From NCBI GenBank assembly GCA_003218945.1, contig QHPE01000163.1:1-36110 (forward strand): 36,110 nucleotides of DNA, given 5' to 3'. The notes under the pieces were generated by a model. The model saw nothing but the letters and a program-made list of their open reading frames with translations, made no database searches and was not told the origin of the DNA. This document shows, piece by piece, positions 13,148 through 16,048 of the stretch (positions are counted from its first letter, which is position 1; every line of letters begins with the position of its first letter). The position numbers were made by a program, and so were the translations under genes. The stretch comes from Verrucomicrobiota bacterium. GTDB lineage: Bacteria > Verrucomicrobiota > Verrucomicrobiia > Chthoniobacterales > UBA10450.

Positions 13148-14677
13148 TTAGTCATCCAGCCAACCCATTCTCTCAAGCAAGCGGCGAAACTGTTGATCGT
13201 CTGTCGAGATCGCGGGTAGCCATTCCCCGATCGGCTCACGCTTCCACCAGGCGTTCTCGCCAATTGGCGCAAATCGATAACGATAAAGTCGCGCCCGAAT
13301 GTAATGCGGCGGTGTGTCCGGAAAGGGATTCTTTGCAAGCAGCGACAGCGTGCCGGGGTCATTGTGCAGAAGTTTCCAAACAAAGTGAAGCGTCCACGGG
13401 TAATCGGCTGGTGAGGCCATCGCCGCGAACCAGATTTGCCAGTCGATTCGCGGTTGATACGGCGCGACGAATGGCGGACGGCGATTTGGATCGCCCGGCT
13501 TGGCTTTGAATTCGTACTCCTGCCATTTTGTGTCGCCGGTGATCAGGGGGTCCTCTGTTCCCTCGAAAATAATTTCATCGCGTTCGCGGCCCACGGTGCC
13601 GAACGCGCCGTAGGTGTTAACAAGGTCAACTGGATCGAATGAGTAATTCATCAGCTGCCGCCCTGAAACGAGATTGAGCACCGTCGGTATGCTGAGCCAG
13701 ATCACCATTATGGATAATGCGATAGCAACCGCGTTATTGATGCCCGACGGCTGTGAGTCTTGAGCCGCGCGTTCTGCGCGCCTTACGATCGCGCCCGGCA
13801 AAAAATGTCGAAGGAAAATATCATCGAAGCACGCTAGAAAGGGAACAATCGTGAGATAATTCAGAAATGAAAGATTGCCGCTGATGATCAGGAAAATCTG
13901 AAACGTAACCAGCAGCACGCCCGCGATGTGGCGCGCAGCTCGCGGTCCAAACGAAAACCAGGGCACGACCAGTTCAATCAAGTGATTCCAAGCCGTCTCG
14001 AGTTTCAGTAGCCAATGCGGCGAAAAATGCAGGTACCGGCTGATCGGACTGGGGATTGGCTGCGTCTCGTAGTGATAGTAAAGGCACGTGAGATCACGCC
14101 AGCAGGGATCGCCACGCAATTTGATCAGACCGGCACCAATCATGATGCGAAAACCGAGCCAACGGAAAAGCCAGATCACCAGAATCGGCGGCCTGCACTT
14201 CGGGAACGGCCGCGCGTCGAGCAGTGGACATAGAAAGATCGACAAGAAACCGGTCTCCAGCAGCTGGATTTCCCAGCCGTAGCCGTACCAAATCTGGCCG
14301 ATGTGAACGATCGACATGTACATGGCCCAAAGCACCCCTAGTAGGATTGCGTTCGCGTATCCACTGAGAACAACGACCGACAGCGCGAAGCCGACCCAGG
14401 AGAAAATCAACAAGGCGTTGTCCGAACTTCCAAACCAGAAGAGCGTCGGAATTCGCAGCATCCCGGCGCTTCGCGAGCCGAGTTGCGTTTGAACCACGTT
14501 TAGAAAATCCCTGGCAGGCGTCAACCCGTGCTCGCCAATCAAAGGGAGCAGTTGGTTTGCTGCGACCAAAAATGCGATTGCATAGACAAATCCAAGTAGT
14601 CGCAGAATGACAAAGCGGGTCAGCCAGTACGAATTTCCGACTGCGAAAAATCTTTCGAGAACCCGCTCGCCATTCAT
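13148..14677 (-). CDS. Lipase maturation factor-like membrane protein
   Basis: 509 residues with several membrane helices: about 20-42, 80-100, 108-128, 180-200, 245-290 and 325-345. Motifs seen in the LMF1/DUF1222 family are present: GEHGLTPARDFL near the N terminus, QIWYGYGWEIQLLETGFL, MIGAGLIKLRGDPCW with DLTCLYYHYETQPIP, and the C-terminal soluble part with PRIDWQIWFAA and PPHYIRARLYRYRF. In animals LMF1 assists lipase folding in the ER; the role of bacterial members is unknown. The neighbouring downstream SGNH hydrolase on the same strand makes a chaperone-hydrolase pairing conceivable, but that is inference. Confidence 0.85.
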   Translation of the reverse strand: MNGERVLERFFAVGNSYWLTRFVILRLLGFVYAIAFLVAANQLLPLIGEHGLTPARDFLNVVQTQLGSRSAGMLRIPTLFWFGSSDNALLIFSWVGFALSVVVLSGYANAILLGVLWAMYMSIVHIGQIWYGYGWEIQLLETGFLSIFLCPLLDARPFPKCRPPILVIWLFRWLGFRIMIGAGLIKLRGDPCWRDLTCLYYHYETQPIPSPISRYLHFSPHWLLKLETAWNHLIELVVPWFSFGPRAARHIAGVLLVTFQIFLIISGNLSFLNYLTIVPFLACFDDIFLRHFLPGAIVRRAERAAQDSQPSGINNAVAIALSIMVIWLSIPTVLNLVSGRQLMNYSFDPVDLVNTYGAFGTVGRERDEIIFEGTEDPLITGDTKWQEYEFKAKPGDPNRRPPFVAPYQPRIDWQIWFAAMASPADYPWTLHFVWKLLHNDPGTLSLLAKNPFPDTPPHYIRARLYRYRFAPIGENAWWKREPIGEWLPAISTDDQQFRRLLERMGWLDD

Positions 14678-14800
14678 GATACCGGAAACCGCTTACCAGC
14701 ACCTTGAGAGAGGTTCAACGCGCAAAGTGTCCTGGAGCGATCCGTTGGCATCTTCACACGTTGACACTCGGTGTGTTGAGATAAAGTTTTCCTCCCTTCT

Positions 14801-14851
14801 GCAAGGGTAACTCAGTGGTAGAGCAGCCCCGAAAGCTTTCGGGGTTGGTCG
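14801..14851 (+). repeat. tRNA-like 5' fragment with palindromic arm
   Basis: Bases 14801-14826 match the 5' 26 bases of the tRNA at 14891 at 24 of 26 positions (acceptor strand plus D arm). Then comes the perfect palindrome CCCCGAAAGCTTTCGGGG in place of the anticodon arm, followed by TTGGTCG as in the tRNA variable region. No T arm follows. Bases 14817-14851 form a direct repeat with 15210-15244 (33 of 35 identical). It is not a functional tRNA. Confidence 0.75.
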
Positions 14852-14890
14852 TGCTTCTTCTCGCTGCTAGGATTGCATGAAAAGGGAAAC

Positions 14891-14962
14891 GCCAGGGTAG
14901 CTCAGTGGTAGAGCAGGGGACTCATAAGCCCTTGGTCGGGAGTTCGAATCTCCCCCCTGGCA
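14891..14962 (+). tRNA. tRNA with CAU anticodon (Met or Ile2)
   Basis: A full cloverleaf can be drawn: acceptor GCCAGGG/CCCTGGC with discriminator A, D arm GCTC...GAGC, anticodon loop CTCATAA, T arm GGGAG-TTCGAAT-CTCCC. The CCA end is not encoded. The last anticodon-stem pair is A-G. CAU can be elongator Met or, after lysidine modification, Ile2; the CTTGGTCG variable-side sequence recalls Ile2 tRNAs but the call is not settled. An initiator is unlikely because the acceptor opens with a standard G-C pair. Confidence 0.9.
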
Positions 14963-14971
14963 GTTTTATGA

Positions 14972-15214
14972 ATGGCTTGGGTTTACATTCTAGGCGGCTC
15001 AAGCGGTCGCTATTACGTTGGATCGTGCGTCGATTTAGACGCGCGGTTCGCGCAGCATCTTCGCGGTCATACAGCAACAACCAAGCGTCTGGGAAAGAAG
15101 CTTGAGATCGTGGCGAAAAAGGAGATGCCAACACTCGCAGATGCACGACGAATTGAGCGGGAGCTGAAACGGAAGAAGAATCCGCTACTCGCAATCTATC
15201 ATTTACGGCGGTAG
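14972..15214 (+). CDS. GIY-YIG nuclease-domain protein next to tRNA
   Basis: 80 residues, only a GIY-YIG domain: WVYIL (GIY position), YYVGSC (YIG position), the catalytic-type Arg in DLDARFAQH, and a C-terminal [11 protein letters not shown] with the conserved Glu. The protein is very basic. The start ATG lies 9 bases after the tRNA 3' end with no Shine-Dalgarno between, so the message may be cut out of, or be read through from, the tRNA transcript. The TAG stop (15212-15214) belongs to the D arm of a partial tRNA copy. Members of this UPF0213-like group are common, often without known function; a link to homing or tRNA-site insertion is inference from this layout. Confidence 0.85.
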
Positions 15215-15268
15215 AGCAGTCCCGAAAGCCTTCGGGGTTGGTCGGGAGTTCGAAACTCCCCCCTGGCA
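15210..15268 (+). repeat. tRNA-like 3' fragment with palindromic arm
   Basis: Starts with D-arm sequence GGTAGAGCAG, then the hairpin CCCGAA-AGCC-TTCGGG instead of an anticodon arm, then 31 bases (TTGGTCGGGAGTT... to CCCTGGCA) identical to the tRNA at 14891 except one T-loop-side base. The 5' acceptor strand is missing. It shares a 35-base direct repeat with 14817-14851. It overlaps the end of the GIY-YIG gene by 5 bases. Confidence 0.8.
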
Positions 15269-15274
15269 CTCCTC

Positions 15275-16048
15275 CTACTTCTTCGGCCTTGCGATGTATG
15301 GCTCTAAATCCTTGTCGCGACCGCGGATCGCAGCCATGAAGCAGACGCCACTGTGTTCGGTCACAGCACCGGTCCAGCCCTCCTGATGAACATAGCGCCA
15401 GTCTGGGAACCGCATTACTGCTCCGGTTTTGCTATTCCTCTCGGCCGGAAACAGAAAGAACTGCATGCGTTTCTCAGCAACCCAGATTTGCGCGATACGC
15501 CGCGACTCGTCATCTTCAAAAACGCGGCAACCAATCGTGCCAAAATCAGCGAATTCTGCCGGGACGTCATAGTGCTCCAGGCCATATTTCATAAAAAACA
15601 AATCGCTTAATGTTCCTGCTTCAGCGTTTACCGGATCCAGCATCACCGGTCGCGTGGAAGCAGCGGTTCCCAACAATTTGCGAGCTGTCGCCGAGGCTGG
15701 GAAATCATTCAGGTGGCTGAGGAAATTAGACACAAACACTCCCGCAATGACCGCAACGGCAATGCTGATAGCGAGCACGGCGGGGTTGCGCATCATTTTT
15801 TTCCAAGTCCACCGCGAGGCCGGGACCAGGTCTTTCTCCGAAAACCACTCGGCAGACTCAGCCGGAATGGGAATCAGACGAACCACATGCGCGACAGCAC
15901 GATCGAAGTTTTGTTGGCTAATAAAATCGGCGGAGCCGTCAACACGGGATATTGCCGCGCGCATGGAACGCTCAACCGATTGATCCGCTCTGATAGGCGC
16001 ACAGTTCAAAAGAGCGCGTTGGCGCCGCATTAATGACAGCAATTTCAT
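15275..16048 (-). CDS. Membrane-anchored protein, probable anti-sigma partner
   Basis: 257 residues. The N-terminal 85 residues are cytoplasmic in character (MKLLSLMRRQRALLNCAPIR...), followed by one membrane helix (about 88-110, NPAVLAISIAVAVIAGVFVS) and an exported domain of about 145 residues containing FFMKYGLEHYDVP, IGCRVFEDDE, WTGAVTEHSGVCFMAAIRG. It begins 3 bases after the stop of the ECF-like sigma gene, which strongly suggests co-translation. Topology and position fit an anti-sigma factor, but the zinc-binding HxxxCxxC motif is absent, so that role is inferred from context. Confidence 0.65.
   Translation of the reverse strand: MKLLSLMRRQRALLNCAPIRADQSVERSMRAAISRVDGSADFISQQNFDRAVAHVVRLIPIPAESAEWFSEKDLVPASRWTWKKMMRNPAVLAISIAVAVIAGVFVSNFLSHLNDFPASATARKLLGTAASTRPVMLDPVNAEAGTLSDLFFMKYGLEHYDVPAEFADFGTIGCRVFEDDESRRIAQIWVAEKRMQFFLFPAERNSKTGAVMRFPDWRYVHQEGWTGAVTEHSGVCFMAAIRGRDKDLEPYIARPKK

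Follow-up and report, generated by a model that had tools for sequence, protein, structure and literature searches.

A probable minimal homing-type GIY-YIG element that splits tRNA genes at the anticodon arm in Verrucomicrobiota

Introduction

Mobile DNA is known to enter tRNA genes by two routes, either through an integrase with a matched end or as an intron that is spliced out. A tRNA-fMet endonuclease, that is a group I intron homing endonuclease in the anticodon region of a tRNA, was reportedly described by Bonocora and Shub in 2001 (cited in PMC3984707). GIY-YIG genes beside tRNAs are also common in Bacteroidota. In T-even phages, the free-standing GIY-YIG homing endonuclease SegB lies beside tRNA genes and cuts within them; it drives recombination and tandem amplification of tRNAs, including tRNA-Tyr, and of its own gene, an effect attributed by its authors to a short stretch of homology shared by the 5' region of the tRNA and the 3' region of segB (PMC13096335). 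By our own reading, the SegB motif given in that source, RAWTSGAAC, is the reverse complement of a tRNA T loop (GTTCSAWTY), a possible reason for its cutting of tRNA genes. In the present work we analysed a stretch of 36,110 nucleotides (nt) of contig QHPE01000163.1 (GCA_003218945.1; Verrucomicrobiota bacterium, Chthoniobacterales; UBA10450), hereafter the window, in which an intact CAU tRNA and a small GIY-YIG nuclease gene are enclosed by the two halves of a second, split tRNA.

In the literature searched, which held few subscription journals and no preprints, no paper on tRNA-splitting GIY-YIG elements was found, and the 2006 survey of the GIY-YIG superfamily (PMC1564403), in its accessible part, names neither COG2827 nor UPF0213 and brings in tRNA only in other contexts. 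A first-pass annotation of the locus had proposed a mobile unit which uses tRNA sequence as its target and carries its own nuclease, or else a tandem duplication of such a unit. The comparisons described below support the mobile unit, and we consider it probable that the module is a minimal homing-type element whose target is a tRNA gene that is present once and presumably essential, and of which a functional copy remains after invasion. New here are how widely the module occurs, its empty sites, nuclease lineages specific to the target, the generality of the hairpin-capped split and evidence, in three genomes, for a foreign inner tRNA.

Results

Organisation of the module

The window belongs to a 2.8-Mb assembly of 250 contigs (genome G000). 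On its forward strand the tRNA 5' half (26 nt; acceptor 5' strand and D arm) is present twice, at 14801-14826 and 14891-14916 (92% identity), as is the tRNA 3' half (31 nt; variable region, T arm and acceptor 3' strand) at 14932-14962 and 15238-15268 (97%). The inner pair belongs to an intact tRNA with anticodon CAU at 14891-14962 (69.4 bits), which was the only one recognised by ARAGORN and Rfam (gathering threshold). It may be an elongator Met or an Ile2 tRNA; such loci are called Met/CAU below. The outer pair forms the split tRNA, in both fragments of which tRNA positions 28-42 (15 nt) are swapped for an 18-nt hairpin, CCCCGAAAGCTTTCGGGG at 14827-14844 on the left and TCCCGAAAGCCTTCGGGG at 15220-15237 on the right; the latter is preceded by the 3' strand of the D arm (GGTAGAGCAG, 15210-15219), identified by comparison of the repeats. 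Given that a hairpin stands in place of the anticodon arm in both halves, as had been noticed at first pass, they do not correspond to a trans-spliced split tRNA.

Sequence comparison also confirmed the 35-nt direct repeat, 14817-14851 and 15210-15244, with 33 of 35 positions identical. It had been said to flank the CAU tRNA and an 80-codon GIY-YIG gene, and this holds for the tRNA and for the presence of a PF01541 gene but not for the whole of the latter: the intact open reading frame (ORF) of 80 amino acids (aa) at 14972-15214 has its TAG stop (15212-15214) within the right repeat, so that the nuclease gene runs into the tRNA fragment on the right. Between the left hairpin and the inner tRNA lies a leader (14845-14890) which opens with TTGGTCG, like a tRNA variable region, and may hold a promoter. 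No integrase gene was found between the window's repeats, where the GIY-YIG ORF is the sole recognisable gene; the other ORFs of at least 60 aa that start between the window's halves, one of 66 aa on the plus strand and one of 115 aa on the minus strand, overlap the tRNA and have no Pfam match.

A second module is present in the window's genome at a tRNA-Lys (G000:C40:7605-7847, L002), and its nuclease gene has an internal TGA.

Occupied and empty tRNA sites

A first set of 13 loci was made of 11 relatives, obtained by a protein search of public genomes, and the two copies in the window's genome. All 13 have a tRNA upstream, tRNA-Met(CAU) in 11 and tRNA-Lys in 2; the hairpin and 3' half follow the nuclease in 12, L007 being decayed, and the 5' half with its hairpin stands ahead of the tRNA in 10 (not in L003, L008 and L013). 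The boundaries are the same at 12 of the 13 loci. Hence neither of the outcomes named beforehand as counting against a mobile unit, that is no such fragments elsewhere or fragments with unfixed boundaries, was encountered.

The family was then surveyed using the anticodon region as bait with at most one mismatch, which located the CAU tRNA in 71 and tRNA-Lys in 68 of 83 genomes, at one place per genome except for G116 (two CAU places); one locus was examined per genome. The module or its remains are found at 51 of these 139 loci. For Met/CAU, 40 of the 71 loci are empty and 31 occupied, with 11 full loci (left half, nuclease and right half), 10 left scars alone, 9 loci with nuclease and right half and one with left half and nuclease. 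For Lys, 48 of 68 are empty and 20 occupied: 11 full, 4 with nuclease and right half, 4 with the left half alone and one with both halves without nuclease. The empty loci, which the first-pass annotation had recommended looking for at tRNA-CAU and which lie at the same place, are nearly all plain tRNA genes. Some of the "empty" calls have less than 150 nt on one side (Met G122, G152 and G172; Lys G111, G136, G142 and G181), and two loci scored empty carry a trace, namely a 17.9-bit nuclease match in Met G137 and a left hairpin scar in Lys G179. The G116 locus (L164), scored as nuclease and right half, has two complete CAU tRNAs around a nuclease fragment and no hairpins, and is perhaps a converted or reverted module. 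The first set and the family survey overlap (L003, for example, is the Met locus of G143) and their counts are not additive.

Furthermore, the 500 nt outside the halves were aligned to the flanks of empty loci. Both flanks aligned to an empty locus for 24 of the 31 Met and 9 of the 20 Lys occupied loci and not in the other 7 and 11, some of the alignments being short or far from the tRNA (G113: 33 nt upstream). Upstream, the window and the empty locus of G178 are 77% identical over 502 nt, the alignment stopping 1 nt short of the left half in the former and of the tRNA in the latter; downstream they are 85% identical over 493 nt, from the 8th base past the right half and the 7th past the G178 tRNA. 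Five occupied/empty pairs are flush, with at most 10 nt on all four measures: window/G178 and G166/G153 for Met, G000/G176, G120/G121 and G180/G168 for Lys. Such flush flanks indicate that the left and right halves together occupy the place of one former tRNA. Judging from these alignments, the nuclease gene is missing from some alleles of the same site, as is expected of a homing endonuclease.

Origin of the inner tRNA

In genus g5 the type GGGTCGG..CCGACCC is found at six of the seven empty Lys loci and also in the inner tRNA of G115. The outer halves of G117 and G120 are also of this type (with some decay in G117), whereas their inner tRNA is of the type GGGTTGG..CCAACCC, a type shared with genus g6 and, within g5, with the single genome G123. 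In G145 (genus g13) the T arm of the right half is GTGGG/CCCAC, like that of three empty congeners, and the inner one is CTGGG/CCCAG; among the g13 empty congeners, G147 differs at one other base. By these allele comparisons the inner tRNA is foreign and the outer halves are native in G117, G120 and G145 (right half only in the last). Given that G117 and G120 may share one event, the three genomes would represent about two events. At the remaining loci the inner tRNA is mostly of native type where congeners permit comparison.

The nuclease

The ORF product is a GIY-YIG domain protein (PF01541, 41.5 bits for a cut-off of 22.6). Residues Y5, Y15, G17, R25, H29 and E62, which we take to be the catalytic positions, are invariant across 18 aligned rows, in agreement with membership of the GIY-YIG superfamily, and the conserved residues align with the nearest solved structures, UPF0213 proteins and the UvrC nuclease domain. 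The best NCBIfam model, below its cut-off, is that of a group I intron endonuclease (TIGR01453), and Rfam at its gathering threshold found no group I intron RNA, only tRNA, in the window and nine loci. The window protein has no match in PHROGs, where a Lys relative shows a weak homing-endonuclease match (E 0.006), nor in the PADLOC defence library, where a Lys relative shows marginal PDC-S14 matches (E 0.001-0.002). The window's genome has six PF01541 matches, of which only the two that belong to the module subfamily lie next to a tRNA.

The nuclease is under constraint, with a median ratio of non-synonymous to synonymous divergence (pN/pS) of 0.23 for 66 Met pairs and 0.29 for 66 Lys pairs, the synonymous sites being saturated in 65/66 and 55/66 of them. 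In a nuclease tree of 31 rows the Met and Lys versions are separate, with 2 target-label changes against a shuffled mean of 11.8. Host genus is not clustered on the tree, as 8 changes were counted for Met (7.7 when shuffled) and 8 for Lys (8.6 when shuffled), with 12 rows each. On this tree, the Met and Lys nucleases are separate, target-specific lineages that do not track host genus. An open stretch of at least 70 nuclease profile positions is retained in 23 of 36 copies (12/21 Met, 11/15 Lys) and the other 13 copies are broken, as would be expected of a homing-gene cycle.

The hairpin

In order to search for the hairpin within a tRNA context, the pattern GAGCAGCCCCGA-N2..8-TCGGGGTTGG was used, with the reversed pattern as control. 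Exact matches were found in 34 of 213 genomes of the order and in 0/213 for the control, and perfect stems of at least 6 base pairs (bp) occur in 3.7% of 20,000 random 30-nt windows; the pattern is therefore not due to chance. When the hairpin-pattern loci were given to ARAGORN (29 of 30 fetched), a tRNA-Lys or tRNA-Met was found nearby in 29/29, so that, as in a home-and-rescue arrangement, the unit holds an intact copy of the broken gene. This search is free of the bias of the family survey, whose 11 + 11 full loci were located through the intact tRNA.

A perfect stem of at least 6 bp is present in 32/38 left and 28/35 right fragments of the family, and in 28/31 fragments at other targets or outside the family, a third set which was scanned slightly more permissively. 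The stems deviate from their consensus at 2.4-2.8% of positions, leaving out 2 of the 35 right fragments without a recognisable hairpin, and the tRNA halves deviate from the inner tRNA at 4.2-4.3%. In addition, one base pair is altered on both sides in 5 of 12 distinct fMet/Asn hairpin rows. In view of the stem frequency, the low stem divergence and the paired change, the hairpin is part of the element and seems to be under constraint. As RNA its stem could grow to about 12 bp by pairing of GAGCAG with UUGGUC. Folded as single strands, the two fragments of the window do barely better than shuffled sequences (z of -1.28 and -1.34).

Hairpin types differ between target groups: CCCCGA..TCGGGG at CAU, Lys and Arg, TCCCGAC..GTCGGGA at some Asn, TCCSGC..GCSGGA at fMet and the other Asn, and GTCGCCGCGGCGAC at two Pro. 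Every type replaces the anticodon arm, wholly or partly. By eye, extra small palindromes have also inserted into the left-half D loops of L007 and L009 and, in nested form, into the right-hairpin loop of L012.

The sequence CCCGAAAGCNTTCGGGG has 40 exact matches over both strands of the window's genome, at 29 distinct places. Of the 14 places viewed in context, 3 belong to tRNA modules, one (L014) has different repeat-like surroundings, and the other 10 form the core of a dispersed repeat about 70 nt long. The dispersed repeat sharing this core resembles repetitive extragenic palindromes (REP), examples being L016, L020, L022, L025, L027 and L037 of G000. A REP hairpin jumping into a tRNA is ruled out as a general origin, because in G213 and G060 the hairpin sequence is confined to the module and because other targets have different hairpins.

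Other tRNA targets and arrays

In a phylum sample of 387 genomes, a nuclease match at E 1e-12 or better was found in 20. Within 17 loci of this search (L242-L258) a tRNA on the same strand is present in 14, ahead of the nuclease in 13 and behind it in L244, and none was found by ARAGORN in 3; these tRNAs are CAU, fMet (read from sequence), Pro, Ser and Asn. In 7 of the 14 a hairpin is followed by a right 3' half with no more than 4 edits; at the other loci this half is decayed or missing, or the left half stands alone. Moreover, 20 weaker GIY-YIG matches of the order (41-54 bits, hand-picked near the top) were meant as a control unrelated to tRNA. Instead, 17 of the 20 adjoin a tRNA-fMet, Asn or Pro with a hairpin-marked 3' half behind, the nuclease match beginning 5-37 nt after the tRNA (340 in L300); ARAGORN found no tRNA at the remaining three (L290, L298 and L299). 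The split-tRNA nuclease design, as read from these loci, recurs at tRNA-fMet, Asn, Pro and Arg.

The Arg case is G309, where a tRNA-Arg is followed by three tandem nuclease genes, each followed in turn by GATAGAGCAG-CCCCGACGAAGTCGGGG-3' half (L259); this genome being one contig, the array is no assembly artefact. L010 and L045 also carry a second nuclease gene, which comes after their right 3' half. Tandem repetition, two to three times, of the left unit (5' half, hairpin and leader) is seen in L012, which is the Met locus of G135, and at the Lys loci of G135 and G184. In L287 (G105) and L291 (G155), fMet and Asn modules are adjacent, on opposite strands and in the same direction respectively, each with its own nuclease and hairpin type.

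Surroundings of the window module

A promoter-like TTGACA ... TAAAGT lies on the plus strand at 14761-14787, 5' of the left tRNA half, and a TTGACA box is likewise seen upstream of the CAU tRNA locus in several relatives, both by eye. Also by eye, the CAU tRNA is co-directed with a neighbour gene resembling 15275-16048 in L003, L008 and L013, and the arrangement is inverted in the window (13148-16048) and in L055.

Discussion

The module is probably best explained as a homing-type element in view of its anatomy, its fixed boundaries, its presence and absence at the same site, its target-specific lineages, the constraint on the nuclease, the decay and scars, and the three foreign inner tRNAs. 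In the cycle that we propose, the single-domain GIY-YIG nuclease would cut a particular tRNA gene in or near its anticodon arm, and repair from an element-bearing copy would split the resident tRNA at that arm. SegB is the closest precedent, being a GIY-YIG enzyme that cuts tRNA genes at its own locus and multiplies the tRNA and its gene through recombination (PMC13096335). The resident 5' half would end up on the left and the 3' half on the right, each capped by a hairpin, and the space between them would be taken by the nuclease gene and a complete tRNA equivalent to the one that was split. Since the complete inner tRNA would supply the cell, splicing would not be needed. Each broken end could pair with either the outer half or the inner tRNA of the donor copy, and the four combinations would yield the full module, nuclease plus right half, the left scar only or an intact tRNA. 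Later, the duplicated halves would recombine with the inner tRNA to give partial states and finally an empty site.

Recombination between the end repeats, on the other hand, would delete the sole intact tRNA. Excision of this kind would leave a 5' half, hairpin and 3' half in one continuous piece; neither the Met nor the Lys version of it was found in 306 loci, many of them overlapping, the lone match (L045, duplicate L079) being the right fragment of an array. As for the hairpin, its most likely role would be to block recutting of the fragments or their folding with the real tRNA.

Among other explanations, a local tandem duplication has to be weighed first, in which the resident tRNA and nuclease would be amplified in place and the extra copies decay or become hairpin-capped, the nuclease stimulating recombination with no invasion of new sites. 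Duplication does occur, as seen in the tandem arrays of L010, L045 and L259 and in the left units repeated at L012 and at the Lys loci of G135 and G184, and inner and outer tRNA alleles are alike at most loci, which fits amplification in place. To this extent the alternative raised at first pass stands; but it does not account for a foreign inner tRNA within native halves (G117, G120) or beside a native right half (G145), for boundaries fixed at the anticodon arm, for separate Met and Lys nuclease lineages spanning genera, or for empty congeners with flush flanks. We therefore regard duplication alone as rather unlikely.

Less likely still is a domesticated RNA device, in which the capped halves would be selected as RNA signals for the host, serving in the processing of a tRNA-nuclease transcript, in mRNA stability or as a decoy. 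Stems that are conserved to within a few percent (2.4-2.8% changed) while synonymous sites of the nuclease are saturated between most genomes, the possible extension through GAGCAG/UUGGUC and the two-sided pair change among the fMet/Asn rows would all suit such a device; patchy presence, scars, broken nucleases and empty congener sites misfit a useful host part, and the window fragments, as noted, fold barely better than shuffled sequences. It is very improbable that an ordinary integrase-type element in a tRNA gene left these halves behind, with the nuclease as a passenger. In favour of this view, the usual footprint of an integrative element is a complete tRNA together with a partial one (PMC9897764). 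However, the nuclease is the only plausible gene between the window's halves, the 66-aa and 115-aa ORFs being without Pfam match, the inserts viewed in relatives have the same size, and hairpins stand in the anticodon arm at both ends.

Several points weigh against the homing interpretation. Cleavage and mobility are inferred rather than observed, and the inner tRNA retains its full anticodon arm, so that the element seems to hold its own target; SegB likewise cuts its own locus. At most occupied loci the inner allele matches the outer one except for scattered changes, and invasion and local duplication are therefore indistinguishable there. Moreover, the Met nucleases of G125 and G143 are sisters on the tree (97/91 support) although the inner tRNAs differ, that of G125 being of its own genus type, which argues against a tRNA that always travels with the nuclease; inner tRNAs being mostly of native type, the element may not always bring its own. 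The nuclease tree was built on 79 columns and has 2 of 27 inner branches well supported, and the genus test is low-powered, with 12 rows per target and many genera as a single row. On the Lys tree the type of the inner tRNA changes 2 times (shuffled mean 5.0), and one change is found in only 18% of bootstrap trees. Both tRNA surveys start from an intact anticodon region and would hence miss modules without an intact tRNA. The 11 relatives of the first set are metagenome-assembled genomes of Verrucomicrobia, from soil according to their names, and most other genomes are in many contigs. Finally, the viral relatives (n=20, 33-41% identical) lie near a tRNA by ARAGORN in 0/20, which points to no phage vehicle.

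If the homing interpretation is true, these elements would represent a third and much simpler route into tRNA genes, which is to break the gene and to bring or leave a spare. The engineered gene-drive design would thereby have a natural counterpart over several tRNAs in one phylum. They would account for tRNA fragments that are otherwise taken for decayed paralogues. Furthermore, the adjacent DNA reveals the target of each of these small, single-domain nucleases, so that site-finding by a bare GIY-YIG domain becomes testable. We also put forward, as a tentative extension which may well not hold, that the modules could be natural home-and-rescue drives: sub-kilobase elements, specialised per tRNA, in which a GIY-YIG nuclease would destroy an essential single-copy tRNA gene and the carried tRNA would replace its function, loss through the end repeats being lethal and the hairpins acting as immunity marks that spare the broken host halves.

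The module shares features with several known systems. It resembles an engineered home-and-rescue drive in that a nuclease would invade a gene needed by the host and the unit holds a working copy, and differs in being natural and bacterial with a tRNA as target, in having a foreign rescue copy in three genomes only and in that drive is inferred (PMC7968924). Split and permuted tRNA genes of archaea and algae also have tRNA genes in pieces, but here the halves are without anticodon and are not expected to give a working tRNA (PMC3218864). With integrative elements that target tRNAs it has in common empty sites, directly repeated tRNA sequence and ends at which both whole and partial tRNAs are found; unlike in them, no integrase was found, the size is under 0.5 kb, the break lies in the anticodon arm and the fragments are hairpin-capped (PMC9897764). 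With group I intron homing endonucleases it shares the anticodon region of a tRNA as target and the need for the tRNA to survive invasion, but Rfam detects no intron RNA and the host tRNA stays split, a whole neighbouring tRNA taking the place of splicing. Like SegB, the nuclease has a link to tRNA sequence at its 3' end, which carries that of a D arm. Unlike SegB, it is chromosomal, has 80 aa and no DNA-binding extension, and lies inside a split tRNA gene between hairpin-capped halves, together with one intact tRNA.
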